Part shown: positions 9,800 to 60,036 of the stretch, piece after piece
Position numbering within the stretch: position 1 is the first letter of the stretch
Layout: the number at the start of each line of letters is the position of its first letter
Assembly: GCF_020405205.1 (NCBI RefSeq)
Contig: NZ_CP084469.1
Location: 3,348,001 to 3,412,000, forward strand
From: Natrinema salinisoli
GTDB taxonomy: Archaea > Halobacteriota > Halobacteria > Halobacteriales > Natrialbaceae
Reading direction: 5' to 3'
DNA: 64,000 bases
Position numbers and translations under genes: made by a program
The notes under the pieces: model-generated
What the model was told of the DNA's origin: nothing
The model's input: only the letters and a program-made list of their open reading frames with translations
Database searches by the model: none

Positions 9800-10936
9800 T
9801 CAGTTAACGTCGAACTCGATCGCCGCACCCTGACCGAAGCCGACGCACAGCGTCGCCAGGCCGAGGCCGCCGCCGCGCTTTTGCAGCTCGTTGATCAGCG
9901 TCACCGGGAGGCGAGCGCCCGAGGCACCCAGCGGGTGACCCAGCGCGATCGCGCCGCCGTTGACGTTGAAGATCTCGGGGTCGATACCGAGTTCGTCCCG
10001 GGAGTAGATCGACTGGCTCGCGAAGGCCTCGTTGAGCTCCACCAGATCGTAGTCGTCGATGTCGCGGCCGTTGCGCTCGAGCAGGCCCCGCGTCGCCGGG
10101 ACCGGGCCGATACCCATGACGGTGGGGTCGACGCCGGCGACGTTGTTCCGGCCGACTTCGGCCATGATCTCGAGGTCGTGTTCCTCGGCGAAGGCCTCGC
10201 TGGTGACCAGTAGGGCGGATGCGCCGTCGGAGATCTGGGAAGCGTTGCCGGGCGTGACGGTGCCGTCCTCCTTGAAGACGGTGGGGAGTTCGGCGAGCTT
10301 CTCCGGGGTCGTGCCGGGGCGGATGCCCTCGTCTTCCTCGACGGTGCCGTCCTCGGTCTCGATCGGGACGATCTCGTCGTCGAAGCGGCCCGACTCGGTC
10401 GCCTCGGTGGCGCGCTGCTGGCTACGGGCGGCGTACTCGTCCTGCTCCTCGCGGCTGACGCCGTACTCCTCGGCGACTTTCTCGGCGGTCATCCCCATCT
10501 GGAGGTCCCCGAGGTCGTACAGCTCGGAGATCTTCGGGTGGATGTGGCCGTAGCTCTCGCCCATCGCGACGCGGCTCATGCTCTCGACGCCGCCGGCGAT
10601 GACGGCGTCGCGGTTGCCGGCCGCGATGGCGTCGGAAGCGGAGATGACCGACTGCATCGAGGAGGCACACCAGCGGTTGATGGTCGTCGCCGGCACCGAC
10701 TCGCCGAGTTCCGAGAGCAGGGCGATGACGCGGGCGAGGTTGTTGTCCTGCTCCTCGCGCTGCTGGGCACAGCCCCACATCAGATCGTCGATCTCCTCAC
10801 CGGAGAGGCCGGTTTCGGCCAGAATCTCGTCGATCAGCGGGACCGAGAGATCTTCACTGCGAACGTCGGCGTATACGCCGTCTTCTTTCCCCTGCGGGGT
10901 CCGAACTGCCTTAACTACGACTGGCGTCTGTGACAT
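9800..10936 (-). CDS. Acetyl-CoA C-acyltransferase (thiolase)
   Basis: A 378-residue catalytic thiolase that cleaves 3-ketoacyl-CoA with CoA (last step of beta-oxidation) or condenses acetyl-CoA. The nucleophilic Cys is in NRWCASSMQSV (about residue 89), the GHPLGASGAR motif supplies the His (about 337), and the second Cys is in LCVGFGQGAA (about 368). Start and length are as usual for the family. A TATA-like TTTAA lies 25-30 nt upstream. The gene is not in an operon with other beta-oxidation genes; it resembles but is not identical to the thiolase at 48697. Its last 35 bp are duplicated downstream (see repeat). Confidence 0.92.
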   Translation of the reverse strand: MSQTPVVVKAVRTPQGKEDGVYADVRSEDLSVPLIDEILAETGLSGEEIDDLMWGCAQQREEQDNNLARVIALLSELGESVPATTINRWCASSMQSVISASDAIAAGNRDAVIAGGVESMSRVAMGESYGHIHPKISELYDLGDLQMGMTAEKVAEEYGVSREEQDEYAARSQQRATEATESGRFDDEIVPIETEDGTVEEDEGIRPGTTPEKLAELPTVFKEDGTVTPGNASQISDGASALLVTSEAFAEEHDLEIMAEVGRNNVAGVDPTVMGIGPVPATRGLLERNGRDIDDYDLVELNEAFASQSIYSRDELGIDPEIFNVNGGAIALGHPLGASGARLPVTLINELQKRGGGLGLATLCVGFGQGAAIEFDVN

Positions 10937-25806: not shown

Positions 25807-26580
25807 CTACGAGAACATCATGTTCACTTCGATCGTGTTCGCCGTCGACAGCAACTGGGTGCGAAGGTCGTGTTCCTCCCACTCGTTCTCGAGTCGATGG
25901 TGGGGTCCGGCGACGGTGACCGCCCCGAAGACGGTTCCGTCGTTGCCCAGGATCGGTGCGCCGATGGCGCTGATTCCGGGCAGGTACTCCCCGCGGCTGT
26001 ACGCGACTCCCTCGTCGCGAATCGCCGCGAGTTCGTCGAAGAGGGCGTCTCGATCGGTGATCGTCTCGTCGGTAAACGCGGGCAGTCCCCACTGGTCGAT
26101 GACCTCGTCGACTCGCTCCTCGGAGAGGTGGGCGAGCATCGCTTTGCCGCCGCCGGAGCTGTGGAGGTAGGTGTGCGTCCCGACGTCGATGTCGCTGGTG
26201 AACGAGCGGGTCCCCTCGCTGACGTTGAGCACCGTTCCGAGCCCGTTCTGGTGTGTCGAACAGAGCACTCGTTCGCCGACTCGCTCCGACAGGTCGGCGA
26301 TGGGCGCGTCGGAGGCCGCGTACAGCGGCTCGGCGTGCTTGACGTGTTCGCCGAAGGAGAGGAGCCGAAGGCTCAACCGGTATTCGTCGCCGTCCTGCAC
26401 CACGTACCCCTTCGATCGCAGCGTCGTCAGGTGGGCGTGAACCGTGCTCTTGGCGAGCCCGGTCCGCTCGGTGAGCTCGGTGACGCCGGCCCCCTCGGCC
26501 TGCCAGAGCGCCTCGAGGATATCCAGCGCTTTCACCACCGCTTCGATCCGATTCCCTCCGTCCCCGCCTGTTGTTCCCAT
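25807..26580 (-). CDS. IclR-family transcriptional regulator
   Basis: A 257-residue regulator. The N-terminal winged helix-turn-helix covers about residues 10-70 (VVKALDILEALWQAEGAGVT in part, LTERTGLAKSTVHAHLTTL as recognition helix region), and the C-terminal effector domain has GERVLCSTHQNGLGTVL and the GAPILGNDGTVFGAVTVAGP element typical of IclR GAF-like domains. IclR regulators bind small carboxylic or aromatic acids and often control nearby catabolic genes. It is divergent from the acyl-CoA dehydrogenase gene with 194 bp between starts, which suggests it controls that operon and its own synthesis. Confidence 0.9.
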   Translation of the reverse strand: MGTTGGDGGNRIEAVVKALDILEALWQAEGAGVTELTERTGLAKSTVHAHLTTLRSKGYVVQDGDEYRLSLRLLSFGEHVKHAEPLYAASDAPIADLSERVGERVLCSTHQNGLGTVLNVSEGTRSFTSDIDVGTHTYLHSSGGGKAMLAHLSEERVDEVIDQWGLPAFTDETITDRDALFDELAAIRDEGVAYSRGEYLPGISAIGAPILGNDGTVFGAVTVAGPHHRLENEWEEHDLRTQLLSTANTIEVNMMFS

Positions 26581-26744: not shown

Positions 26745-26751
26745 GTTTAAG
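26745..26751 (+). promoter_or_regulatory. TATA-like box of the acyl-CoA dehydrogenase operon
   Basis: GTTTAAG lies about 27 nt before the ATG at 26775, placing the transcript start at or next to the ATG. This fixes the start at 26775 rather than the in-frame ATG at 26751. Confidence 0.5.
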
Positions 26752-26774
26752 TGGGACGTTATGTAAGACGAATT

Positions 26775-27971
26775 ATGGACTTCAGCGAACCGTCCGAAGC
26801 CGTGCAGATCAAGAAAGCTCTCGACGACTTCATCAAACAGGAGGTCGCTCCGCTCGAGAACGAGTACGATCGGTTCCTCGGCGCGGACTACGAGAAGGAG
26901 ATCGTCGACGACGAGCACCGACAGGTCCCGGAGTACCGCAATATCATCGAGAAGATCCGGAAGAAGTCCGTCGAGGCAGGCTTCTACGGCATGACGATGC
27001 CCGAGGAGGTCGGCGGCGGCGACGTCGGCATCCTCACGCGAGCCATCGTGGGCGAGCACATAGCAAACCGGCCACCGGGGTTCGCCAGCGCCATTTTCGG
27101 CGGTGCCGGCGGCCCAACGCCCATCCTGCTGAACTGCGACGAGCGCCAGCGCGAGGAGTACCTCGAGCCGCTGATGGACGGGGAGATCACGACCTGCTTC
27201 GCGCTGACCGAACCGGGCCACGGCAGCGATGCCCATCACATGGACACCAAGGCCGAGAAAGACGGCGACGAGTGGGTGATCAGCGGCCAGAAGTGTTACA
27301 TCACGAACGGCCCGTACGCCGACTTCGCGATGGTGTTCGCTCGGACGAGCGGGGAGGACGGTGATCTGGGCGGGATCACTTGCTTCCTCGTCGACAAGGA
27401 CAACCCCGGCTTCGAGGTCGGAAAGATCCACCGCGCGATGGGGATGACCCCCGGGACGCACTCCGAACTGTACTTCAACGACTGCCGCGTCGGCGAAGAA
27501 CAGGTGCTGGGCGAAGTCGACAAGGGCTTCCAGTCCGCGATGGACTGGATCGGCGGCGGTCGGATCAACATCGCCGCCGGCTCCGTCGGAACGGCTCAGT
27601 TCTTGCTCGATATGTCGGTCGAGTACGCCCGCGAGCGGAAGACGTTCGACAAACCGATCGGTCACCGACAGGGAATCTCGTTCCAGCTGGCCGAACTCGC
27701 GACGGACATCGAGCAGGTCCGTCAGCTCTACCGCTACGCCGCCTGGAAGATGGACGAGGGCGAGCGAGCCCGCAAGGAGGAGTCGATGGCGAAGCTCCGC
27801 GGGGCGAAGCTCGCGAACGACGCGGCTGACATCGCGATGCAGGTCCACGGCGGAGCCGGTTTCATGAAGGACCTCCCCATCGAGCGCAACTATCGATCGG
27901 CTCGCGTGTTCCGGATCTTCGAGGGGACGGACGAGATCATGAAACGGACGATCGCCCGCGAACTCATCTGA
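26775..27971 (+). CDS. Acyl-CoA dehydrogenase
   Basis: A 398-residue flavoenzyme that introduces the alpha-beta double bond in acyl-CoA, passing electrons to ETF. The helical N-terminal domain is followed by the FAD-binding ACFALTEPGHGSD (about residues 142-153) and WVISGQKCYITNG (about 167-179). The catalytic Glu is in RIFEGTDEIMKRT (about 383). The C-terminal helical domain starts at about 240. The GEVDKGFQSAMDWIGGGR stretch (about 250-266) is usual for the family. First gene of a short operon with the MBL hydrolase 9 nt downstream; probably regulated by the divergent IclR gene. Confidence 0.92.
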   Translation: MDFSEPSEAVQIKKALDDFIKQEVAPLENEYDRFLGADYEKEIVDDEHRQVPEYRNIIEKIRKKSVEAGFYGMTMPEEVGGGDVGILTRAIVGEHIANRPPGFASAIFGGAGGPTPILLNCDERQREEYLEPLMDGEITTCFALTEPGHGSDAHHMDTKAEKDGDEWVISGQKCYITNGPYADFAMVFARTSGEDGDLGGITCFLVDKDNPGFEVGKIHRAMGMTPGTHSELYFNDCRVGEEQVLGEVDKGFQSAMDWIGGGRINIAAGSVGTAQFLLDMSVEYARERKTFDKPIGHRQGISFQLAELATDIEQVRQLYRYAAWKMDEGERARKEESMAKLRGAKLANDAADIAMQVHGGAGFMKDLPIERNYRSARVFRIFEGTDEIMKRTIARELI

Positions 27972-30964: not shown

Positions 30965-32551
30965 CTAGTCGTCCTCCGGCTCGTCGCCGTCCTCGAGCTT
31001 GTACTTCTGGATCTTCCCCGAGGTCGTCCGCGGGAGTTCGTCGATGAACTCGACCTCGCGGGGGTGCTTGTAGGAGGCGACGTTGTCGAGGAAGAACTCC
31101 TTGATCTCCTCGGTCGTGACGTCGACACCGGGTTCGATGTTCGGCCGGGTAACGACGTAGGCCTTCGGCACCTCGTTGCGCCGCTCGTCGGGGATTCCCA
31201 CCACCGCGCCCTCGGCGACGGCCTCGTGTTCGGCGAGGAGCTCCTCGAGTTCGCTGGGGTAGATGTTGTAGCCGGCGGAGTTGATCATGTGCTTCTTCCG
31301 GTCGACGATCTCGTAGTAGTTGTCCGCGTCGCGGCGGGCGATATCCCCGGTGCGGAACCAGCCGTCCTCGGTAAAGGCCTGTTCAGTCGCCTCGGGCATC
31401 CCGTGGTAGCCCTTCATCACCTGCGGCCCGCGGACGAGGAGTTCCCCCTCCTCGCCGACGGCGACCGTCTCGCCGCTCGAGTCGACGATCTTGGCCTCCG
31501 TCATCCGGGTCGGCTGGCCGATCGTCCCGTGACGCAGGCCGAACGTCGAGCCGCTCTGGGAGTGGGTCGCGCCGTTCGTTTCGGTCAGTCCGTACCCCTC
31601 CGCCATGTCGACGCCGGCGACCGCCTCGAACTCCTCTTGAACGGCGACGGACATCTTCGCACCGCCCTCGCCGGCGGACTCGAGGCTGGTGAGGTCGTAC
31701 TCGCCGAACTCCTCGCTGTTGATCATGTCGACGTACATCGCGGTGACGCCGACGTAGTGGGTGATCCCCTCCTCCTCGATCAGTTCCATCGCGGCGTCGC
31801 CGTCCCAGTTGGCCGCACTCCGCAGGTAGACGCTCCCGCCGCGGACCAGCGGCTGCCACGCGGTGTGGGTGAAGCCGGTGATGTGATACAGCGGCAGCCA
31901 GACGAGGCTGCGGACGTCCTCGTCGTCGATCGCACCCTCCTGAGAGAGCACCGAGAAGGTCTGGGCGCGGAAGTTACGGTGGGTGAGCTGGACGCCCTTG
32001 GGCTTGCCCGTCGTTCCGGAGGTGTAAGGTAACAGCGCGACGTCGTCGTCGGCCCGTTCGACGAACGTCTCCTCCCCCCGGACGTCCTCGAAGGCGTGGA
32101 CGTCGGTATCGTCGCCGTCGGCGTCCGTCCCGACCGAGATGACGATCGGTTCCCAGTCGATTTCCGCGAGCGCCTCCTCGAGAAACGGCTCCAACGCCTC
32201 GTGGGTGAGCACTGCCGTCGCCTCGGTGTCCTCGAGCTGGTAGGTCAGCTCCCGCTTGCGGTACTGGGGGTTGACCGGCGAGACGATCGCGCCGGCCTTG
32301 AACGCGCCGAGCGCGCCGATCAGGTAGGGCGGACAGTTCGGGAGGTACTGCAACATGACGTCGCCGGGTTCGATTCCGAGATCGGCCAGCCCGCCGGCGA
32401 ACCGCGAGCTTTCGGCCTGCAGCTCCGCGTGGGTCAGCGTCCGGCCGTGGTACTCGATCGCCTGTGCATCGCCGTGGTGTCGGGTCGTTTCGTCGTGTAA
32501 CCGCGCGACGTTCCCTTCTCTCGAATTCTCGCTAACGCTTGCCAAATCCAT
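30965..32551 (-). CDS. Acyl-CoA synthetase (AMP-forming)
   Basis: A 528-residue acid--CoA ligase of the ANL superfamily. Core motifs: YTSGTTGKPKGVQLTHRN at about residue 175, the A5 element AEGYGLTETNGATHS (about 310), the A7 hinge GWFRTGDIARRDADNYYEI (about 390-408) and the A10 catalytic Lys in PRTTSGKIQKYKLE (about 512). It activates a carboxylic acid, probably a fatty or aryl acid, to enter the neighbouring beta-oxidation steps. The start at 32551 (MDLASV) is supported by a TATTTTATATT box about 26 nt upstream. It overlaps no gene and is cotranscribed with the hydroxyacid dehydrogenase. Confidence 0.92.
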   Translation of the reverse strand: MDLASVSENSREGNVARLHDETTRHHGDAQAIEYHGRTLTHAELQAESSRFAGGLADLGIEPGDVMLQYLPNCPPYLIGALGAFKAGAIVSPVNPQYRKRELTYQLEDTEATAVLTHEALEPFLEEALAEIDWEPIVISVGTDADGDDTDVHAFEDVRGEETFVERADDDVALLPYTSGTTGKPKGVQLTHRNFRAQTFSVLSQEGAIDDEDVRSLVWLPLYHITGFTHTAWQPLVRGGSVYLRSAANWDGDAAMELIEEEGITHYVGVTAMYVDMINSEEFGEYDLTSLESAGEGGAKMSVAVQEEFEAVAGVDMAEGYGLTETNGATHSQSGSTFGLRHGTIGQPTRMTEAKIVDSSGETVAVGEEGELLVRGPQVMKGYHGMPEATEQAFTEDGWFRTGDIARRDADNYYEIVDRKKHMINSAGYNIYPSELEELLAEHEAVAEGAVVGIPDERRNEVPKAYVVTRPNIEPGVDVTTEEIKEFFLDNVASYKHPREVEFIDELPRTTSGKIQKYKLEDGDEPEDD

Positions 32552-32568
32552 GGCCCATGATATCACGC

Positions 32569-32834: not shown

Positions 32835-32873
32835 ATGGTACGATCCGCTGGACGGAGGAATACCCGTGGCTGA
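32835..32873 (+). CDS. Upstream mini-ORF (12 codons) overlapping the thiolase-like gene
   Basis: It encodes MVRSAGRRNTRG and stops at 32873, overlapping the GTG start at 32866 by eight bases. It contains the Shine-Dalgarno sequence GGAGG (32854-32858) of the main gene. A TATA-like box about 31 nt upstream would make its ATG the first base or nearly so of the transcript. Confidence 0.35.
   Translation: MVRSAGRRNTRG
32854..32858 (+). promoter_or_regulatory. Shine-Dalgarno sequence deciding a GTG start
   Basis: GGAGG seven bases before the GTG at 32866. It supports GTG as the start of the thiolase-like gene. Confidence 0.55.
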
Positions 32874-34014
32874 ACCGATCGTCGCCGGCGTCGCCGAGAG
32901 CGACCTCGGCGAGACGCCCGACCGAAACTGGCTCGATAACGCGGCGATCGCGACCGTTCGCGCCCTCGAGGACGCCGGTTGCTCCCTCTCGGACGTCGAC
33001 GGCGTCGCGGTCGCCGGCGGCGACGACTACATGCCGGCGCTGGTGCTCTCGGAGTACCTCGATCTCGACGACCCCTCGTTTCTCGAGGGGACCGAGATCG
33101 GCGGATCGTCGTTCGAACACTTCTGCGGTCACGTCGGCGATGCGATGGCCCGCGGCGAGGCAGACGTCGTGGTTATCGCCTACGGTTCGACGCGCAAGAC
33201 GGGGCCCGGCAGCGAGCAGTCGCTCGAGGAGACGCACCCGATCGACGGCTTCGTCCGTCCGACGGGGCTCTTTCGACCGCCGGGGGCGTACGCGATGGCC
33301 GCCCGCCGACACATGCACGAGTACGGGACGACCGAGGAACAGCTCGCGGAGATCGCCGTCTCGACCCGCGAGTGGGCGTCGATGAATCCCAAGGCGGCCC
33401 ACCAAGACCCGATTGCGGTAGAAGACGTCCTCGAGTCCCGGCGGATCGCCGAGCCGTTCAACTTGCTCGACTGCTGTCTGGTTTCCGACGGCGGCGGCGC
33501 GGTCGTGCTCGTGAGCGAGGAGAAGGCCGGCGAACTCGACGTCCCCCGCGTCTCGGTGGCCGGCGTCGCCTCCACGAGCACGCACCGGCAGGACATCAGC
33601 GAGATGCCGGACATGACGACGACCGGCGCGGCGGTAACGGGGCCGAAGGCCTTCGAGCAAGCGGGGATTGCCCACGACGACGTCGACGTCGCCCAGATAT
33701 ACGACTCGTTTACCTACACCGCGCTGGTCACGCTCGAGGATCTGGGCTTCTGCGAGAAGGGCGAGGGCGGCGCGTTCGTCGAGGGCGGTACCACCGCGCC
33801 GGGCGGCGAGCTCCCGATGAACACGCAGGGCGGCGGGCTCTCCTATTGCCACCCCGGACACTTCGGCGTCTTCGTCCTCATCGAGGCCGTCCGCCAGCTC
33901 CGGGGCGACTACACCGGCGAGCGGCAGGTCGACGACGCCGAGGTCGCGGTCGCCCACGGCACCGGTGGACTACTGTCCTCGAGTAGCACCGTCGTCTTAC
34001 GGAGGGAAGCATGA
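32866..34014 (+). CDS. Thiolase-fold protein lacking the nucleophilic Cys (Ltp2/DitF-like, probable retro-aldolase)
   Basis: A 382-residue protein of the SCP2-thiolase/lipid-transfer subfamily (VAGVAESDLGETPDRNWLDN at the N-terminus). The place of the catalytic Cys reads EIGGSSFEHF (about residues 78-86), without a Cys in the nucleophile position; C87 is five to seven residues late. The usual GHPxGxxG is replaced by YCHPGHFG (about 327-334), and Y284 lies in YDSFTYTAL. These traits match Ltp2/DitF-type proteins, which act with a DUF35 partner as aldolases in steroid side-chain breakdown. The gene overlaps the DUF35 gene by ATGA, strengthening this. The reaction itself is inference. Start is GTG with GGAGG seven bases upstream. 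Confidence 0.75.
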   Translation: MAEPIVAGVAESDLGETPDRNWLDNAAIATVRALEDAGCSLSDVDGVAVAGGDDYMPALVLSEYLDLDDPSFLEGTEIGGSSFEHFCGHVGDAMARGEADVVVIAYGSTRKTGPGSEQSLEETHPIDGFVRPTGLFRPPGAYAMAARRHMHEYGTTEEQLAEIAVSTREWASMNPKAAHQDPIAVEDVLESRRIAEPFNLLDCCLVSDGGGAVVLVSEEKAGELDVPRVSVAGVASTSTHRQDISEMPDMTTTGAAVTGPKAFEQAGIAHDDVDVAQIYDSFTYTALVTLEDLGFCEKGEGGAFVEGGTTAPGGELPMNTQGGGLSYCHPGHFGVFVLIEAVRQLRGDYTGERQVDDAEVAVAHGTGGLLSSSSTVVLRREA

Positions 34015-34436
34015 GCGCCCCGGTCGAAGACCGTCGCGAGGAATGGGACGGGCCGGTTCCCGTCCCGACCGGCGCGACGGCCCCGTTCTGGGCGGCGACG
34101 CTCGAGGGCGAGCTTCGCTATCAGCAGTGTGACTGCGGGAACCGCCAGCTGTACCCGCGGGCGGTCTGCACCGCGTGCGGGGCCGAGGACCCGCCGTTCG
34201 CGGCGAGCGAGGGCGTCGGGACGATCTACACCTACACCGTCTGCCACGTCCCCGGCGAGCCCGGATTCGCCGAGCGGACGCCCTACGTCGTCGGTGCGGT
34301 CGAGCTGGCCGAGGGGCCGCGGCTGCTCGCGCTGATCGACGCCGATCCCGAGTCCCTCGAGGTCGGTGCGCCGGTCGCGGTCACGTTCTGGCAGGTCTCC
34401 GACGACGCTGCGATCCCGGTGTTCGTCCCGGCGTAA
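34011..34436 (+). CDS. DUF35 protein: zinc-ribbon plus OB-fold
   Basis: A 141-residue partner protein. The N-terminal helix/strand region contains a rubredoxin-like zinc ribbon with QQCDCGNRQLYPRAVCTACG (Cys at about 42, 44, 55, 58), then an OB-fold with GVGTIYTYTVCHVPGEPGF (about 68-86). DUF35 proteins bind acyl-CoA and form complexes with thiolase-like enzymes or HMG-CoA synthase, and in actinobacterial steroid catabolism with an aldolase (Ltp2-ChsH2). The start ATG overlaps the TGA of the thiolase-like gene by four bases, so the two are produced in equal amounts. Confidence 0.9.
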   Translation: MSAPVEDRREEWDGPVPVPTGATAPFWAATLEGELRYQQCDCGNRQLYPRAVCTACGAEDPPFAASEGVGTIYTYTVCHVPGEPGFAERTPYVVGAVELAEGPRLLALIDADPESLEVGAPVAVTFWQVSDDAAIPVFVPA

Positions 34437-34452
34437 CCGCGTCGGGCCGATC

Positions 34453-35478
34453 TCACTCGAGATCGGCCGTCGCCGTCCCGGTCAGCAGCGTCTCGCCGTC
34501 GGTCGTCCGCGCCTCGAGTTCCGTCTCGACCGTCCCCGAGTCGCGATCGACCTCGACGACGTCGCCGGTCGCGACGACGGTGTCGCCGGGGAAGACGCGC
34601 GACTGGAACCGCAGGCCGAAACTCGCGACGTCGGCGAGATCGAACCAGTCCGTGACGACCCGCGAGGTGATCCCGGCGGTGAACATCCCCTGACCGAAGA
34701 CGCTCTCGTTGCCCGCGGCCGTCGCGTAGGGCTCGTCGTAGTGGATCGGGTTGAAATCGCCGCTGGCACCCGCGTACTTGACGAAGTGCTGGCGCTCGAG
34801 GTCCGCGACGACGACCGTCGGGCCGGTGTCGCCGACCGCGAGGTCGTCGACCGTGCGGACGCGGTCGAACTCGTCGGTCGTGTCCGAGGGCGCTGTCGAC
34901 TCGGCGCCGGCGGCTCCGCCGTTCGTCGCTGCGTCGGTGTCGTCGTTCTCGGGTTCGTCACTGCCGTCGCCCGCATCACCGTCGCCGTCGTCGACCGCCC
35001 CCTCGGTTTCGATCGCGGTCGACCGGTCAGTCAGGACGAGGTCGCCGTCCTGCGTCCGATACTCGGTCTCGAAGACGGCGAAGGTCATCGTCCCCGCACG
35101 GCCGCCCTCGCGCTGGAAGACGTCCGCGAGGGTGGTCGTTCCCTCGAGGACGTCGCCGACGTAGATCGGGCGCTCGTACTCGTGGGCCTGCTCCCCGTGG
35201 AGGACGTACTCCGGCTGAAAGCCGAGGTCGAACCCCTTGCCCTCCACATCGGCTGGCGTGTACCGCGGGAACCGGGCGACCTGCGTGTAGGTGAGCGGCG
35301 CGGGCACGCGGTCGTGACCCCGTTCGGCGGCGGCCGTTTCGTCGCGGAAGACCGGGTCGTCCGAGGTGATCGCTCGAGCGAACTCCTCGACCTTACCGGG
35401 TTCGATGCGGAACCCCTCGGCGGTGACCCGGGAGTCGCCGACCATCGCCTCGAGCTCCGCGAGTGACTTATTCGGCAT
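34453..35478 (-). CDS. Two-domain MaoC-like enoyl-CoA hydratase (double hotdog)
   Basis: A 341-residue protein with an N-terminal hotdog domain (about residues 5-150; FRIEPGKVEEFARAITSDDP, ending VFETEYRTQDGDLVL) and a C-terminal catalytic hotdog (about 225-341). The hydratase-2 motif YAGASGDFNPIHYDEPYA (about 240-257) keeps the Asp and His that hydrate the double bond. The two are joined by an acidic, alanine/glycine-rich linker of about 50 residues. Steroid-type hydratases have the same pairing of a degenerate and an active hotdog. It is convergent to the DUF35 gene (16-nt gap). The start MPNKSLAE is preferred with GGAGG (35485-35489) upstream; a mini-ORF overlaps it. Confidence 0.85.
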   Translation of the reverse strand: MPNKSLAELEAMVGDSRVTAEGFRIEPGKVEEFARAITSDDPVFRDETAAAERGHDRVPAPLTYTQVARFPRYTPADVEGKGFDLGFQPEYVLHGEQAHEYERPIYVGDVLEGTTTLADVFQREGGRAGTMTFAVFETEYRTQDGDLVLTDRSTAIETEGAVDDGDGDAGDGSDEPENDDTDAATNGGAAGAESTAPSDTTDEFDRVRTVDDLAVGDTGPTVVVADLERQHFVKYAGASGDFNPIHYDEPYATAAGNESVFGQGMFTAGITSRVVTDWFDLADVASFGLRFQSRVFPGDTVVATGDVVEVDRDSGTVETELEARTTDGETLLTGTATADLE

Positions 35479-35855: not shown

Positions 35856-35930
35856 ATGGCAGTGACTATCACACTCGGCTCGAGCGAACGGTCAGTCGAA
35901 CGCGCTGCGACCGCGGAGGGACGGCGATGA
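35856..35930 (+). CDS. Upstream mini-ORF (24 codons) overlapping the SDR start
   Basis: It begins MAVTITLGSSERSVER and ends at TGA 35928-35930, which overlaps the SDR ATG as ATGA. The Shine-Dalgarno sequence GGAGG of the SDR (35915-35919) lies inside it. A leaderless start at its own ATG is likely from the TATA-like box. Confidence 0.4.
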   Translation: MAVTITLGSSERSVERAATAEGRR

Positions 35931-36700
35931 CGACCGACCAGTTCAGCGTCGACGGGGAGACCGCGATCGTCACCGGCTCCTCGAGCGGGATCGGGAAGAC
36001 GATCGTCGAGCGGTTCGCCGCCGACGGTGCGAACGTCGTCGTCACCTCGCGGGACATCGACAACGTCGAGCCGGTCGCCGAGGCGATCAACGAGAGCGAG
36101 CGACCGGGAGAGGCGATCGCGATCGAGTGCGACGTGACGGATCGCGGTGCGGTTCAGGACCTCGTGGACGAAACCGTCGCGGAATTCGGCGGCCTCGACA
36201 TCCTGATCAACAACGCGGGGGCGAGCTTTCAGGCCCCGCCCTCGGAGATCAGCGAGAACGGGTGGAAGACCATCGTCGACATCAACCTCCACGGCACGTT
36301 CCACTGCTCGCAGATCGCCGTCGAGTACATGCGCGACAACGGCGGCGGCCGGATCGTCAACTTCGCCAGCGTCGCGGGTACCCGGGGCTCGCGGTCGATG
36401 AGCCACTACGGCGCGGCCAAGGCCGGCGTCGTCAACTTCACCACCTCCGTCGCGGCCGACTGGGCCGAAGACGGTATCTGGATTAACTGCATCGCACCCG
36501 GGCTCGTCGCGACCGAGGGCGTCCGCACCCAGATGGGTGTCGACGACGACGCCGACGAGATCGCCCGCACCACGCCGGACCGGACGATCGGCAAACCCGA
36601 GGAGGTCGCCGACCTCGCGCAGTTCCTCGCCAGCCCGGCCTCCTCGTACATGGTGGGCGAGACGGTCACGATCAAGGGGATACCACGCCTCGAGGAGTAA
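35927..36700 (+). CDS. SDR family oxidoreductase (3-hydroxyacyl-CoA or related)
   Basis: A 257-residue classical SDR with TGSSSGIGKTIVERF (about residues 13-27), NNAGASFQAPP (about 92-102), catalytic Ser in IVNFASVAGTRGS (about 145) and Tyr-Lys in MSHYGAAKAGVVNFT (about 158-162), plus PGLVATEG. The start is fixed by GGAGG at 35915-35919 and the ATGA overlap with the mini-ORF. It sits between a MaoC hydratase and an acyl-CoA ligase, so oxidation of a 3-hydroxyacyl-CoA made by the hydratase is plausible. That role is inference from context. Confidence 0.88.
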   Translation: MTTDQFSVDGETAIVTGSSSGIGKTIVERFAADGANVVVTSRDIDNVEPVAEAINESERPGEAIAIECDVTDRGAVQDLVDETVAEFGGLDILINNAGASFQAPPSEISENGWKTIVDINLHGTFHCSQIAVEYMRDNGGGRIVNFASVAGTRGSRSMSHYGAAKAGVVNFTTSVAADWAEDGIWINCIAPGLVATEGVRTQMGVDDDADEIARTTPDRTIGKPEEVADLAQFLASPASSYMVGETVTIKGIPRLEE

Positions 36701-36829: not shown

Positions 36830-38407
36830 ATGGAACTCGATATCGTCTCCGCGGAGACGCTTTTGGAGCCACCCTACGACGGCAACGTCGCCAACTTGCT
36901 CGAGCGAGCGATCGCGGAACAGCCCGACGCGGTCGCGATCGAACACGCCGGCGAGACGATCACCTACCGGGAGTTCGGGGATCGCGCCGCGCGGTTCGCG
37001 AACGGGCTCCGGGAACTCGGTCTCGAGGCCGGCGATCGGGTCGGCGTCTACATGCCCAACGGAATCCCCTTCTGTACCGTCATCTGGGCCTGCTGCCGCG
37101 CCGGCGTGATCGCGAGCCCGCTGAACCCCGAATACCGCCGCCGCGAGATCGAATACCAACTGGACCACGCCGATGCCGAGGCGGTGCTGATCGAGGGCGA
37201 CGCCAACGACTACGTCGTCGAGGCAGTGGCCGGCCTCGAGACGGCGATCGTCAGCGCCACGCCGGACAGCGACCACGCGTCCCTGCCGGAACTCGCTAGC
37301 GACGCGACCGCGGCGGTCGCCGATCGCGAGGACGACGACGTCCTGCTTCAGCCGTACACCTCGGGAACCACCGGCAAGCCGAAGGGCGTCCTGCTGACCC
37401 ACCGCAACTTCCGGGTCCAGATCGCACAGGCCGTCTCGAGTTACAGCGCCGGGCCGATCGAGGGGGACGGCATCATCGTCCTGCCGATGTACCACATCAC
37501 GGGGATGATCCAGATGATGGCGTCGCTCTGTGCCGGTCGGACGCTGCACCTGCTTCGCCCCGATCAGTGGGACCCCGAGCGGGTGCTCGCAAAGCTCGAC
37601 GAGCACGATATCCCGGCCTTTACCGGCGTCGCCGCGATGTTCGTCGATCTGCTCGAGGCCTACGACCCGGACGAGCACGACCTCTCGACGCTGATCAAGG
37701 CGGGGCAGGGCGGGGACAAGCTCCCGAAGCCGACCCAGGAGCGCTTCGAGGAGGCGTTCGGCGTCCCGCTCTCGGAGGGGTACGGGCTGACGGAGACGAC
37801 CGCGACGTCCCACACGATCCGGTGGTCCTCGCTCGGAAACAGGCCCGGCAGCGTCGGGCAACCCGTCGGCCACACGCGCTCGAAGGTCGTCGACGAGGAC
37901 GGGAACGAGGTCGGCCCCGGCGAGGAGGGCGAGATCCTCATCGCCGGCCCGCAGGTGATGAAGGGCTACTACGAGAACCCCGAGGCGAACGAGGCGGTCT
38001 TCACCGAGGACGGCTACCTGCGAACCGGCGACATCGGGACGCGGGACGCGGACAACTACTACTACATCAAGGGCCGGGAGAAGGAGATGATCCTGACCGC
38101 GGGGTACAACGTCTACCCGCGGGAGATCGAAGACTTGCTCTACGAACACCCGGACATCCACGAGGCGGCGGTCTTCGGCCTCCCCGACGACCGGCGGGGT
38201 GAGACCGTCGCCGCCGCGATCACGCCGAAAGCGGGCGCGGACCTGACCGAAGACGACGTCGAGGCGTACGTGCTCGACGAACTCGCGCCCTACAAACACC
38301 CGCGGGTCGTCGAGATCCGTCCCGAGCTCCCGAAGACGGGGAGCGGGAAGATCCGCAAGACGGCGTTACGGGACGAACTCCTCGAGGAACGCGGCATCGA
38401 ATCGTGA
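36830..38407 (+). CDS. Acyl-CoA synthetase (AMP-forming)
   Basis: A 525-residue ANL-superfamily ligase. YTSGTTGKPKGVLLTHRN is at about residues 176-193, EGYGLTETTATSHT at about 316, the hinge GYLRTGDIGTRDADNYYYI at about 395-413 and the A10 Lys in PKTGSGKIRKTALRDELLEE at about 511. It is similar in length and motifs to the synthetase at 30965, which suggests an old duplication within this catabolic region, though the two have distinct substrate-pocket sequences. A TATA-like ATATAC at 36793-36798 supports a leaderless start at 36830. Confidence 0.92.
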   Translation: MELDIVSAETLLEPPYDGNVANLLERAIAEQPDAVAIEHAGETITYREFGDRAARFANGLRELGLEAGDRVGVYMPNGIPFCTVIWACCRAGVIASPLNPEYRRREIEYQLDHADAEAVLIEGDANDYVVEAVAGLETAIVSATPDSDHASLPELASDATAAVADREDDDVLLQPYTSGTTGKPKGVLLTHRNFRVQIAQAVSSYSAGPIEGDGIIVLPMYHITGMIQMMASLCAGRTLHLLRPDQWDPERVLAKLDEHDIPAFTGVAAMFVDLLEAYDPDEHDLSTLIKAGQGGDKLPKPTQERFEEAFGVPLSEGYGLTETTATSHTIRWSSLGNRPGSVGQPVGHTRSKVVDEDGNEVGPGEEGEILIAGPQVMKGYYENPEANEAVFTEDGYLRTGDIGTRDADNYYYIKGREKEMILTAGYNVYPREIEDLLYEHPDIHEAAVFGLPDDRRGETVAAAITPKAGADLTEDDVEAYVLDELAPYKHPRVVEIRPELPKTGSGKIRKTALRDELLEERGIES

Positions 38408-38449
38408 GCCACTTGTACGCGAGCCCTCGAATCGGTGACTATCGCTCGA

Positions 38450-39742
38450 ATGTCTGACCAGCCCTCCTATTCGACGTCCGAGATACGGACGATCGCGCTC
38501 GCAGTCATCGCCGGCGTCTTCTTCGGCGGGGTGGCGACGGGCGTCGCCTTTCCGACGCTGCCGCTGCTCGACGAGAAACTCGTGATCAGCGCCGTCATGC
38601 TGAGCGTGATCCTCTCGGCCAATCGGATCGCGCGATTGTTCATGAACACGCCGGCCGGGACGATCATCGACCGGGTGGGCGCGCGGAAACCGATGATCTT
38701 CGGGCTGTTCACCCAGGCGTTGGCTCCCTTCGGGTACGTCGTCGGCCTCCACACGCCGCCGACCGATCTCGGCACGGTGCCGCTGCTGGGCGACGTGTCG
38801 CTCCCGGGCGTCGTCTTCGTCCTGGCCCGGCTGTTCTGGGGCGTCGGCAGCGCGTTCGTCTTCATCGGCGCGTTCGCGACGATCACGTACGTCACGACGT
38901 CGGACAACCGCGGCCGGTGGGTCGGCTACATGCGCGGCGGCCAGTCGCTCGGCTTCCCGACGGGCCTCGTCGTCGGCGGGCTCCTGACCGACCTCGCCAG
39001 CATGCAGACCGCGTTTCTCGTTGCCGGCGTGCTCGCGCTGATCGCCGGCACCGTCGCCACCCTCGTCCTCCCGGACGTCCACGCCGGGGCCGACGGTCGA
39101 GGCGCGAAGCTTCGGGAAGTCCCCTCGCTGCTCGCGAGCAATCCGACCGTCGTCCTGATCGGCTACGGCAACTTCACCGTTCGGCTCCTGTGGGGCGGCA
39201 TCATCCTCTCGACGCTGGCCCGCTACGCCAGCGACTCCGGCCTCGAGCTCTCGGCTCTGGGTGCGGCGGGCATCAGCGGCATCGTGATGGGACTCGGCGT
39301 GCTCACCGCGGGGTCGATGACGGTCGTCACCGGCTGGGTGTCGGACATGGTCGACGATCGGACGCTGCTGACGGTGCCCGCGTTCCTGGCGATGGGCGGG
39401 GGCTTCCTGATCATCGCCTACGTGCCGACCATCGAGGCGTTGCTCGGGGCGATCGTGCTCGTCGGGGGCGGCATGGGCGCGGCCGCGCCCGCGATGCTCG
39501 CGATCATGGGTGATCTCACGCCCGGCGACGAACTCGGGCGGATGGGCGGCGTTTACCAGGTGATGGGCGACGTCGGACTCAGCCTCGGTCCGCTCGTCGC
39601 GATTCCGGCGGTCGATCTCTGGTTCGGCTACCAGACGACGTACGTGCTCTGTGCCGCGCTCGTGTTGAGCTGCCTGACGATCGTCTCGCTCCCGCTGTTG
39701 CGGAACCCCGAGGTCTCGAGAGCGGGAGTGAAAGCGGACTAG
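38450..39742 (+). CDS. MFS transporter
   Basis: A 430-residue, 12-helix major facilitator superfamily carrier. After a short hydrophilic start, AVIAGVFFGGVATGVAFPTL begins helix 1; the motif A loop is GTIIDRVGARKPMIFGLFTQ (about residues 67-86) and its second-half counterpart WVSDMVDDRTLLTVPAFLAM (about 299-318). The start MSDQPS at 38450 is preferred over the in-frame ATG at 38435, because the five extra residues add nothing of the family. It may carry a compound degraded by the acyl-CoA genes just upstream (43-nt gap), perhaps in one transcript. Confidence 0.85.
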   Translation: MSDQPSYSTSEIRTIALAVIAGVFFGGVATGVAFPTLPLLDEKLVISAVMLSVILSANRIARLFMNTPAGTIIDRVGARKPMIFGLFTQALAPFGYVVGLHTPPTDLGTVPLLGDVSLPGVVFVLARLFWGVGSAFVFIGAFATITYVTTSDNRGRWVGYMRGGQSLGFPTGLVVGGLLTDLASMQTAFLVAGVLALIAGTVATLVLPDVHAGADGRGAKLREVPSLLASNPTVVLIGYGNFTVRLLWGGIILSTLARYASDSGLELSALGAAGISGIVMGLGVLTAGSMTVVTGWVSDMVDDRTLLTVPAFLAMGGGFLIIAYVPTIEALLGAIVLVGGGMGAAAPAMLAIMGDLTPGDELGRMGGVYQVMGDVGLSLGPLVAIPAVDLWFGYQTTYVLCAALVLSCLTIVSLPLLRNPEVSRAGVKAD

Positions 39743-48696: not shown

Positions 48697-49866
48697 TCAG
48701 ACCCGCTCGAGGATCGTCGCGACGCCCTGCCCGAAGCCGATGCACATCGCCGACAGCGCGGTGTCCTGGCCGGTGCGCTCGAGCTCGTGGACCAGTTTCG
48801 TCAGGAGCATCGCGCCGGTCGCGCCCAGCGGGTGGCCGTGGGCGATCGCGCCGCCGTTGACGTTGACGTCCTCCCAGGACGCGCCGGTCTCCTCGAGCCA
48901 GGCCGCGACGACCGACGCGAACGCCTCGTTGACCTCGAAGAGGTCGACGTCGCCGACGGTCATGTCGGCCTTCTCGAGGACGTTCTCGGTGGCCGGAATC
49001 GGCCCCTTCAGCATCGTGATCGGGTCGACGCCGACGACTTCCGTCTGGCGGATGCGGGCCATGGGTTCCCAGCCGTGTTCCGCGGCCGCTTCCTCGCTCG
49101 TAATGAGCATCGCACAGGAGCCGTCGACGATCCCCGAGGAGTTCCCGGGGTGGTGGAAGCCGTTGCCCTCCTCGCGGAACGACAGCGGCAGTTCCGACAG
49201 CGTCTCGACGTCGGTCCCCGGTCGGGGATGTTCGTCCTGCTCGACGACGACTTCTTCACCGTCGAGTTCGGTTTCGACCGGGACGATCTGATCGTCGTAG
49301 CGGCCCTCGTCCCAGGCGTCCTTCCAGCGCCGTTGGGAGTCGGCGGCGATCTCGTCGAGCTCCGAGCGCGCGAAGCCGTACTCCTCGGCGATCCGTTCGG
49401 CTCCCTCGCCCTGGTGAGTCACCTCGTCGAAGTGCTCGAAGTACGTGTCAGTGAGGGACCCGTTCCCGTCGGCACCGTCGGCCCCGTCCGAGCCCATCGG
49501 GACGCGGGTCATGTGCTCGACCCCGCCCGCGACGAGCACGTCGTGCTGGCCGGCCATGACGTTCGCGGCGGCGAAGTTGGCCGCCTGCTGGCCGGAACCG
49601 CACATCCGGTTGAGCTGTACCCCGGGAACGATATCGCCCCAGCCGGCGATCATCGGCGCGAGCCGGGCGATGTTCAGGCCCTGCTCGTCGACCGGCGTGA
49701 CACAGCCGTAGATCACGTCCTCGATCGTCTCCGGCTCGAACCCGTTGCGCTCCCGGAGCGCCTCGAGCGGTTTCGCGGCGAGATCCTGCGGGTGCGTGTC
49801 CCTGAACGAACCGTCGCGCTTCCCGAACGGCGTCCGGACGGCGTCGACGATGACTGCGGAGTTCAT
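48697..49866 (-). CDS. Acetyl-CoA C-acyltransferase (FadA-like thiolase)
   Basis: A 389-residue catalytic thiolase. The N-terminus MNSAVIVDAVRTPFGKRDG is family-typical. The nucleophilic Cys is in QLNRMCGSGQQAANFA (about residue 89), the GHPLGATGAMLL motif holds the His (about 346), and the second Cys lies in LSAMCIGFGQGVA (about 377). All catalytic residues of true thiolases are present, in contrast to the protein at 32866. It probably cleaves 3-ketoacyl-CoA from the neighbouring acyl-CoA dehydrogenase (147 nt downstream, same strand). An in-frame upstream ATG at 49914 (MHNIYDG) is less likely. Confidence 0.94.
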   Translation of the reverse strand: MNSAVIVDAVRTPFGKRDGSFRDTHPQDLAAKPLEALRERNGFEPETIEDVIYGCVTPVDEQGLNIARLAPMIAGWGDIVPGVQLNRMCGSGQQAANFAAANVMAGQHDVLVAGGVEHMTRVPMGSDGADGADGNGSLTDTYFEHFDEVTHQGEGAERIAEEYGFARSELDEIAADSQRRWKDAWDEGRYDDQIVPVETELDGEEVVVEQDEHPRPGTDVETLSELPLSFREEGNGFHHPGNSSGIVDGSCAMLITSEEAAAEHGWEPMARIRQTEVVGVDPITMLKGPIPATENVLEKADMTVGDVDLFEVNEAFASVVAAWLEETGASWEDVNVNGGAIAHGHPLGATGAMLLTKLVHELERTGQDTALSAMCIGFGQGVATILERV

Positions 49867-50027
49867 GACGTGTCTCTGAGTATTTCGCGATCCATCATAG
49901 ATGTTGTGCATATATTCGTCAGTGTCCTCGTTGGACTCTTTCAGGCCCGATTGGCTCGCTACTCGGTCGTGGGGTCTGGTAGCTCTCCACAATAATTAAG
50001 TCAGATACCATAGTATTCGCTCGGGAA

Positions 50028-56472: not shown

Positions 56473-57405
56473 TCAGTCGTCGCCCTCGAGGGACACTAGC
56501 TCGTCGACGTCCGGGATATCGGCCGCGGCGTCCGTGATCTGTCGCATTCGATCCGTGTGCTTCTCGACCGCGTAGGCGGCGAGCTTCCCCTCCTCGAGGC
56601 CGGCGCGCTCCCCCGGATCGTCGGGCTGGAACCGATTATCCTCGGTGATCCCCTGAACCAGGGGGACGAGCTCGTTGACGGTATCCTCGACGATCGCCGG
56701 ATCGACGCCCTCCGCGATGAGCTTCTTCAACTGGTTCATGCCGAAGCCGACGTGGCGGCCCTCGTCGCTGCGGATCTTCGTAAAGCCCTGGACGAGCCCC
56801 GGCAGATGCGGAAGCTCCTCGAAGTCGCCGCCGTAGGAGGTCTGCATCCCGTAGTAGCCCGTCTGCGCGAGGATCCCCTCGACCGTGAGGTGGTAGTGAC
56901 AGTACGCCTTCGCGCGGTTTTCGGGCGTGTCCTCCTCGAGCAGCCGGAACTGCGCCTTCCGGTTGCGGTCGAACAGTTCGACGTAGGGGTCGTTGAACCA
57001 CCGCTCGTGGCGGGGATCGGACCGCTCCCAGCCCAGTTCGTCTTCGACGGTCCAGACGACCTCCCGCCAGTAGCGGTCGAAGAAGTCCGCGTGCTTGGCT
57101 TCCTCGTACATCTGGGTCGTCAGGAACAGCTGATCGTCGATATTGTCGAGCACCGTCCCCAGCGGCGCGAGATCCTCGGTGACCGCGTCCTCCCCTGCAC
57201 CGAACTTCGCGATGCCGTTGAGCGTTCCGTACCACGATTCCCGGTCGTAGCCCTCCGCCCCGTCGATGTACGTCAGCAAGTTCTCGACGTCCCGCTCGAG
57301 GTCGATCTCGCCGGGATCCCAGTGGCGCTCGACCGCGTTGCGATAGTAGCGGTTCGACTTCGAGTCCCGGTCCATCATCGCCGCCGGTGTGTACTCCGTT
57401 GCCAT
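56473..57405 (-). CDS. R2-like ligand-binding oxidase (R2lox)
   Basis: A 310-residue ferritin-fold protein of the ribonucleotide-reductase-R2-like family that carries a Mn/Fe cofactor and does not take part in deoxynucleotide synthesis. The six metal ligands are in place: E72 (GAGEDAVTEDL), E102 and H105 (EEAKHADFF), E176 (YHLTVEGILAQTGYY), E215 and H218 (IRSDEGRHVGFG). V75, three after E72, and Y171, five before E176, are the pair that forms the Val-Tyr ether cross-link in known R2lox. Bound long-chain fatty acid is seen in known structures. It starts the minus-strand run and has a TATTTAAT-type box near 57430. Confidence 0.85.
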   Translation of the reverse strand: MATEYTPAAMMDRDSKSNRYYRNAVERHWDPGEIDLERDVENLLTYIDGAEGYDRESWYGTLNGIAKFGAGEDAVTEDLAPLGTVLDNIDDQLFLTTQMYEEAKHADFFDRYWREVVWTVEDELGWERSDPRHERWFNDPYVELFDRNRKAQFRLLEEDTPENRAKAYCHYHLTVEGILAQTGYYGMQTSYGGDFEELPHLPGLVQGFTKIRSDEGRHVGFGMNQLKKLIAEGVDPAIVEDTVNELVPLVQGITEDNRFQPDDPGERAGLEEGKLAAYAVEKHTDRMRQITDAAADIPDVDELVSLEGDD

Positions 57406-59122: not shown

Positions 59123-59298
59123 GTCATACCCCACCATATCATGGGTGAAATAGCTTCGGGATGTTGACACTCTCTGGGGGAGTTGCCCGGTCGTCGTATC
59201 CGAGCAGCCGCGGCGTACGGACCGGTGAAATCGGTCACGGATCGGCGTCTCCACGCGTGTTGATAAGAACTAAGTCAGTACCCGTGAAGGATGCTGTC

Positions 59299-60036
59299 AT
59301 GGCACAAAAGCGTGCTGCCGTCGTCGGTGGCGGCATCATGGGCGCCGGTATCGCACAGGTACTCGCACGGAACGGCTACGAGGTGGCCGTCCGCGAAATC
59401 AACGAGGAACTGGCCGAGGAGGCCCGCGAACGGGTCGTGTCGGGCAACTACGGACTCGACGATGCCGTCGAAGGGGGGTACCTCTCCGAAGACGAGAAAG
59501 CCGAGGTCCTCGAGCGGCTGTCGTTCACCACGGATCTCGACGAGGCGACGAACGGCACGGATTTCGTGATCGAGGCGGTCACGGAGGACCTCGCGATCAA
59601 GGGCCAGGTCTTCCGCGATCTGGACGAGGTGACGGACGAGCAGCCGCTGTACTCGAACACGAGCGGCTTTTCGGTGACGGCGATCGCGAACGGCGTCTCC
59701 GATCCCTCCCGCGTCGCGGTCACGCACTTCTTCAACCCGGTCCCGGTCATGTCGATGGTCGAAATCGTCCAGGCACCCCAGACCGACGAGGCCGTCGTCG
59801 AACGCGCCGAGGAGCTCGTCGACGAACTCGGGAAGACCAGCGTCACCATCGACGACGACCCCGGCTCCTACGGCTTCCTCGCTAACCGCTGTCACGCGGC
59901 GATGCGAGAGGAGGCCCAGAAGATCGTCGACGAGGGTATCGCGACCGAAGAACAGGTCGACAAAGCGCTCGAGGAGGGGTACAACCTCCCCGTCGGTCCG
60001 TTCTCGCTGCGCGGCATCGGCGAGGAGTGGGACTGA
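59299..60036 (+). CDS. 3-hydroxyacyl-CoA dehydrogenase, short at the C-terminus
   Basis: A 245-residue enzyme that oxidises 3-hydroxyacyl-CoA with NAD. The dinucleotide motif VVGGGIMGAGIAQVLARNG is at about residues 7-25; catalytic Ser/His/Glu elements are in NTSGFSVTAIAN (about 120-131) and VTHFFNPVPVMSMVEIV (about 140-156), Asn in FLANRCHAAMREEAQKIV (about 195-212). Usual family members have about 285 residues. Here the C-terminal dimerisation domain stops soon after NLPVGPFSLRG. The gene is followed by repeat copies C and D, so the missing part could have been lost by their insertion. Alternatively a natural short family. Confidence 0.8.
   Translation: MAQKRAAVVGGGIMGAGIAQVLARNGYEVAVREINEELAEEARERVVSGNYGLDDAVEGGYLSEDEKAEVLERLSFTTDLDEATNGTDFVIEAVTEDLAIKGQVFRDLDEVTDEQPLYSNTSGFSVTAIANGVSDPSRVAVTHFFNPVPVMSMVEIVQAPQTDEAVVERAEELVDELGKTSVTIDDDPGSYGFLANRCHAAMREEAQKIVDEGIATEEQVDKALEEGYNLPVGPFSLRGIGEEWD

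Follow-up and report, generated by a model that had tools for sequence, protein, structure and literature searches.

What reaction might be catalyzed by a thiolase-fold protein in which the nucleophilic Cys of thiolases is missing? The question is raised by a locus in the window, a stretch of 64,000 nucleotides from the chromosome of a Natrialbaceae haloarchaeon (G000:C1:3348001-3412000). Here the gene for such a protein (THL) overlaps the gene for a DUF35 protein by 4 nucleotides (ATGA), and the stop codon of the latter lies 16 nucleotides from that of a convergent gene for a MaoC hydratase. An initial annotation, made from the sequence alone, read the trio as a hydratase and retro-aldolase module. 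Comparison with the thiolase-fold retro-aldolases Sal and Ltp2 suggests that THL-DUF35 is probably an aldolase-like C-C cleaving enzyme of the same kind, with MaoC acting as the hydratase before it.

Active-site residues were counted in 132 close homologues, aligned together with relatives of solved structure. THL carries the motifs IGGSSFEHF and YCHPGHFG, and IGGSSFEHF had been reported to stand in place of the nucleophilic Cys. The motif is indeed present, but the thiolase Cys column falls on its second Gly (Gly80) and not on Ser. Gly was found there in 132 of 132 homologues, in agreement with the published Gly at the same position of Sal (PMC12329534). The thiolase HDxF or NEAF motif, with its His or Asn, corresponds to YDSF in THL; Tyr279, Asp280, and Phe282 were each present in all 132 homologues and residue 281 was Ser or Ala only, counts that are partly by construction because members were selected by the motif YD[SA]F, while those at residues 80 and 329 are not. 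The rows left out by this selection all fall in other recognizable clades. The His of the thiolase GHP motif is retained as His329 (131/132), which occupies the position of the Ltp2 catalytic acid Tyr344. No alignment placed a Cys in the active site of THL, an outcome that had been looked for as evidence against the initial annotation.

Written as the residues at these three sites, the active-site code is Cys/HDxF/GHP in Cys thiolases, Ser/HD[MA]F/GHP in BktB of the Haloferax mediterranei type, Gly/YDHF/Tyr in Ltp2, Gly/YDCY/Gln in Sal, and Gly80/YD[SA]F/His329 in the THL family. Catalysis requires Tyr294 of Ltp2, which aligns with Tyr279, and Tyr302 of Sal, and the C304S and C304A variants of Sal are dead (PMC12329534). 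YDSF with its retained catalytic Tyr279 is the strongest evidence for an aldolase-like site and was overlooked in the first reading of the sequence. Where Ltp2 (Thermomonospora curvata, 6OK1) has His296 and Tyr344 and Sal (Comamonas testosteroni, 9MYR) has the acid Cys304 and Gln352, the THL family has Ser or Ala at residue 281 and His329. The site of THL is most likely a predicted Tyr/His variant, that is, a third version of the known aldolase site.

Two substitute nucleophiles were considered and rejected. The Ser of IGGSS, in the style of H. mediterranei BktB/PhaA, lies beside the aligned Gly80 and varies (Ser in 118, Ala in 12, Gly in 1, and Cys in 1 of 132 homologues); judged from these alignments, it is not a nucleophile. 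The Cys of EHFCGH, left open by the first pairwise alignments, lies seven positions farther down the helix and shows no conservation. Other motif variants were also seen. Ltp2-like proteins of Rhodococcus and Williamsia (L090, 1357-2478; L153, 3464) have YDPF, lack the GHP His, sit on a very long branch, and perhaps represent another active-site variant. Thiolase-fold proteins that pair with DUF35 and carry the motifs GGTS and YAPF (L016, G000:C1:1222096-1222518; L086, 5396) resemble neither thiolases nor aldolases.

Trees were built with the catalytic columns removed, and their root was not inferred. The PRK06158/PRK08142 family (including THL), Sal, and Ltp2 were split from all HD-type thiolases with support of 100/100. 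The HD side held zebrafish SCP2 thiolase (6HSJ), BbsB, archaeal acetoacetyl-CoA thiolases, and the Ser-type haloarchaeal BktB proteins; a grouping of THL with true SCP2 thiolases had been looked for and was not obtained. Branching among the three YD clades was unresolved, with Sal and Ltp2 together in one tree (95/87) and Sal with the THL family in another (65/27). Both the active site and the phylogeny thus support the view that THL is not a thiolase.

Sequence ranking and fold comparison gave similar orders. The family profile scored 4U4E at 565 bits, Sal at 305, Ltp2 at 261, an archaeal thiolase at 243, BbsB at 207, acetoacetyl-CoA thiolase at 194, and SCP2 thiolase at 181, and a reverse search from Sal again had 4U4E as its top match. 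4U4E is a bacterial putative thiolase (Sphaerobacter thermophilus) whose structure is solved with no function assigned; it falls in the same clade as THL, is 50-52% identical to it, and shares the motifs GGSS, YDSF, HP, and HGTGG. An AlphaFold model of THL (predicted local distance difference test [pLDDT] score, 85) matched 4U4E, Sal, Ltp2, and then thiolases in Foldseek. VIA-align gave Z scores of 51.3 for 4U4E (root mean square deviation, 1.8; 351 residues aligned), 49.6 for Sal (2.2; 368), 49.5 for TbSLP, 48.5 for Ltp2, and 48.4 for an archaeal thiolase. Sal was the second-best match of THL in both fold and sequence.

The DUF35 protein pointed in the same direction. Its zinc-binding cysteines are conserved, and its best Protein Data Bank matches were the DUF35 domain of Shy (2.2e-23), that of ChsH2 (2.5e-16), and that of a thiolase complex (1.3e-13). 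These matches, with those of THL, support the retro-aldolase complexes Sal-Shy and Ltp2-ChsH2 as the closest functionally characterized relatives of both proteins, judged by sequence. In both complexes, the aldolase is held by a DUF35 domain that is fused to a hydratase (PMC11321319), whereas here DUF35 is a separate gene. DUF35 was found in 85 of 86 bacterial loci, in nearly all as a separate gene of ~120 to 160 amino acids, and no MaoC-DUF35 (Rosetta-stone) fusion inside PRK06158 was seen in these 86 loci. The Vibrio alfacsensis homologue of Sal has a 311-amino-acid OB-fold partner, as in Shy. An arrangement like the present one has been proposed for Atf1-ChsH4 of Mycolicibacterium neoaurum, in which a thiolase-fold aldolase would pair with a free-standing DUF35 polypeptide and a separate hydratase; the complex itself is a proposal, and Atf1, unlike THL, is of the Sal type (56% identical to Sal1) with a steroid substrate (PMC10398937).

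The claims that a Cys-less thiolase fold is coupled to DUF35 and faces a two-hotdog MaoC with GDFNPIH were confirmed by the open reading frames, by Pfam (THL, Thiolase_C_1, 1e-62; DUF35, zf-ChsH2 and OB_ChsH2_C; MaoC, FAS1_DH_region and MaoC_dehydratas), and by 25 orthologous loci with THL identities of 86 to 94%. The THL-DUF35 pair and its overlap were kept in all 25, and MaoC was convergent with the pair in 24 of them, though upstream genes differ between genera; the arrangement is not due to chance. The Asp/His dyad of GDxNPxH, here GDFNPIH, was invariant in the 25 MaoC proteins and sits in the C-terminal hotdog. Double-hotdog hydratases have one inert half, and the N-terminal hotdog of MaoC is alike in lacking the motif. 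As a small control, the other seven thiolase-fold paralogues of the same genome (six loci) had no MaoC match within ~9 kb. Among the 86 bacterial loci, SDR (short-chain dehydrogenase) and crotonase genes were each found in 38, acyl-CoA dehydrogenase in 36, CaiB in 34, and MaoC in 32. These data support a stable linkage of MaoC to THL-DUF35 in orthologues and its recurrence near bacterial homologues.

In the genomes of three relatives (L063 in G055, L070 in G072, and L072 in G076), the orthologous THL gene is broken by an in-frame TGA or a change of frame while its neighbors are intact, which may reflect sequencing error or recent loss.

In the reaction that we propose, a ligase and an acyl-CoA dehydrogenase would supply an enoyl-CoA, which the adjacent MaoC would hydrate to a 3-hydroxyacyl-CoA. 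THL and DUF35, forming one heteromeric enzyme, would then split this product by retro-aldol chemistry, yielding an aldehyde or ketone and a short acyl-CoA, with MaoC and THL working in sequence. Tyr279 may take the proton of the 3-hydroxyl, as Ltp2 Tyr294 and Sal Tyr302 do. Since the aldolase base is kept and the known acids are absent, the thiolase-like His would have to act as the acid, with His329 taking over from Ltp2 Tyr344 or Sal Cys304 in protonating the enolate of the acyl-CoA. DUF35 would shape the pocket and bind THL as in Sal-Shy. Precedents for such pairs are Sal-Shy, Ltp2-ChsH2, and Atf1 with ChsH4 (PMC12329534, PMC11321319, PMC10398937). Ligases, an SDR, and an acyl-CoA dehydrogenase are present near the trio, as had been stated; nothing in the evidence points to the branched acyl-CoA or the side-chain removal that had also been suggested.

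Several findings weigh against this interpretation. THL has neither of the general acids known from the aldolases, Sal Cys304 and Ltp2 Tyr344, and therefore belongs to neither clade; the analogy drawn earlier with Ltp2/ChsH2 holds in that these are among the nearest characterized relatives and fails in that THL is not one of them. The VIA-align scores hardly separate Sal, TbSLP, Ltp2, and archaeal thiolases from one another, so that fold by itself is not decisive. Two loops of the THL model are poorly predicted (117-126 and 322-331), and the second, with pLDDT below 50, contains His329, so that the geometry of this residue is not established by the model. A literature search found no biochemical data on any PRK06158 or PRK08142 member. 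Because MaoC is convergent, it is not cotranscribed with THL-DUF35, and the locus of Halostagnicola larsenii lacks MaoC as well as the SDR and ligase 2; the module idea is thus borne out by linkage but not as one operon. The neighboring SDR would be in keeping with ordinary 3-hydroxyacyl-CoA oxidation. Aldehyde dehydrogenase genes were near only 6 of the 86 bacterial loci, with no general enrichment. A neighboring aldehyde dehydrogenase was accordingly dropped as proof of an aldehyde product, being only occasional (in Variovorax L092, it lies 7 nucleotides away). In the same genome as THL, a PRK08142 member (L076, G000:C1:1243816-1244970) that is 48% identical to THL and also has a DUF35 partner lies ~4.7 kb from an aldehyde dehydrogenase with a CGGERC motif, which was likewise not used as proof.

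Could the missing Cys simply be normal for haloarchaea? THL would then be a haloarchaeal-type beta-ketothiolase (BktB/PhaA) with a Ser-His-His site. Enzymes of this type, with a thiolase alpha subunit, an OB-fold beta subunit, and no Cys, exist in H. mediterranei (PMC7137286), and the Ser of IGGSS looks like a Cys replacement. This explanation is very improbable, as the BktB-type protein L175 of H. mediterranei (which may not be the assayed BktB itself; SSS at the Cys column, HDMF) and three proteins of the THL genome carry TSxS, HD[MA]F, and GHP, whereas THL has Gly in that column, YDSF, and a neighboring Ser that varies to Ala in homologues. The trees also place BktB-type proteins with Cys thiolases, apart from the THL family, at 100/100. 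Alternatively, THL-DUF35 might close an ordinary round of beta-oxidation, cleaving 3-ketoacyl-CoA without a covalent Cys intermediate, by direct thiolysis or hydrolysis. The full set of functions, including the SDR, adjoins the pair and recurs in bacteria (in Bacillus thermotolerans L098, the order is SDR-MaoC-MaoC-THL-DUF35-ligase), and the GHP His is retained. Against this stand the Tyr that replaces the HD His in 132 of 132 homologues, the cleavage of hydroxyacyl-CoA by the nearest characterized relatives, and the normal Cys thiolases with Thiolase_N domains elsewhere in the window (9800-10936 and 48697-49992), and we know of no thiolase that functions without a nucleophile. Because the SDR adjoins the pair, we consider this explanation unlikely rather than rejected.

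The fold itself is plastic, as illustrated by PhlC, which transfers acyl groups to phenols, and TbSLP, which slowly decarboxylates malonyl-CoA (PMC6392133, PMC12329534). THL might by analogy work in the synthetic direction, in an aldol- or Claisen-type joining, or as a decarboxylase, and PhlC, too, has an active-site Tyr (Tyr298). PhlC has kept its Cys88, however, and the surroundings of THL look catabolic (IclR regulator, transporters, ligases, and acyl-CoA dehydrogenase), making such a role improbable. The retro-aldolase assignment of THL-DUF35 could also be correct with MaoC a mere neighbor from a different pathway. Transcription is convergent, MaoC is missing from the H. larsenii locus and from beside the pair in a 66% identical relative (L071), and bacterial loci have MaoC in only 32 of 86 cases versus crotonase-type enoyl-CoA hydratases in 38. 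Yet all but one of the 25 orthologous loci have MaoC, including loci whose upstream genes differ, and a bystander role is rather unlikely.

How far does the retro-aldolase reading of THL-DUF35 extend? THL scores 460.8 bits against NCBIfam NF004811 (PRK06158, "acetyl-CoA acetyltransferase"; curated cutoff, 421), and a genome scan found at least 595 confirmed relatives, the best 80 of which come from Pseudomonadota, Actinomycetota, Bacillota, and Chloroflexota. Within Halobacteria, close orthologues are restricted to Natrialbaceae, and other haloarchaeal families have relatives of 43 to 50% identity. Since the family is mainly bacterial and widespread in Bacteria, THL is not an archaeal invention, the emphasis on an archaeal host was misplaced, and transfer from bacteria is plausible. 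We tentatively propose, as a possibility somewhat short of probable, that PRK06158 and PRK08142 make up a third branch of the thiolase-fold retro-aldolases, large, nonsteroid, and with a Tyr/His site, misannotated as acetyl-CoA acetyltransferase across these four phyla and Halobacteria. Hundreds of bacterial and archaeal members carry the name acetyl-CoA acetyltransferase or thiolase. Should these be aldolases, the end product assigned in many reconstructions of acyl-CoA pathways is wrong, an acyl-CoA standing where an aldehyde or ketone belongs. Retro-aldol cleavage would then often serve in place of thiolysis in CoA-based catabolism, also far outside steroid degradation. A literature search found no report on the function of 4U4E or on steroid catabolism in haloarchaea. 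The Tyr279/His329 pair and this functionally unread crystal structure make the idea directly testable. Overall, the first reading largely survived its own refutation tests and its interpretation is partly supported, with retro-aldol activity predicted from sequence.

The genes of the locus are listed in the table. Around the trio are also genes for an MBL-fold hydrolase, an F420-type LLM protein, and a D-2-hydroxyacid dehydrogenase.

Table. Genes of the THL-DUF35 locus, with positions in the window
Feature	Position	Strand	Description
THL	32866..34014	+	GTG start, 382 amino acids; thiolase-fold subunit, NF004811/PRK06158 family; Gly80 replaces thiolase Cys; predicted Tyr279/His329 retro-aldolase
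DUF35 partner	34011..34436	+	Zinc ribbon (Cys40, 42, 53, 56) and OB fold
MaoC	34453..35478	-	ATG at 35478, end at 34453; double-hotdog (R)-type enoyl-CoA hydratase, GDFNPIH in C-terminal half
SDR	35927..36700	+	Short-chain dehydrogenase, FabG type; in most orthologous loci
LIG2	36830..38407	+	AMP-forming acyl-CoA ligase (ligase 2); in most orthologous loci
MFS transporter	38435..39742	+	In 25/25 orthologous loci; candidate substrate importer
LIG1	30965..32560	-	Second AMP-forming acyl-CoA ligase; in about two-thirds of orthologous loci
Acyl-CoA dehydrogenase	26751..27971	+	Candidate enoyl-CoA supplier; not beside the trio in several genera
IclR-type regulator	25807..26580	-	For upstream part of locus

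Two further genes of the window deserve mention. A 3-hydroxyacyl-CoA dehydrogenase (59161-60036) stops about halfway through its C-terminal domain (profile positions 1 to 46 of 97) and has no continuation in other frames; the gene is possibly broken. Within an acyl-CoA gene cluster, a relative of R2-like ligand-binding oxidases (56473-57405) scores 134.8 bits, below the cutoff of 194, and is possibly a divergent di-metal oxidase.

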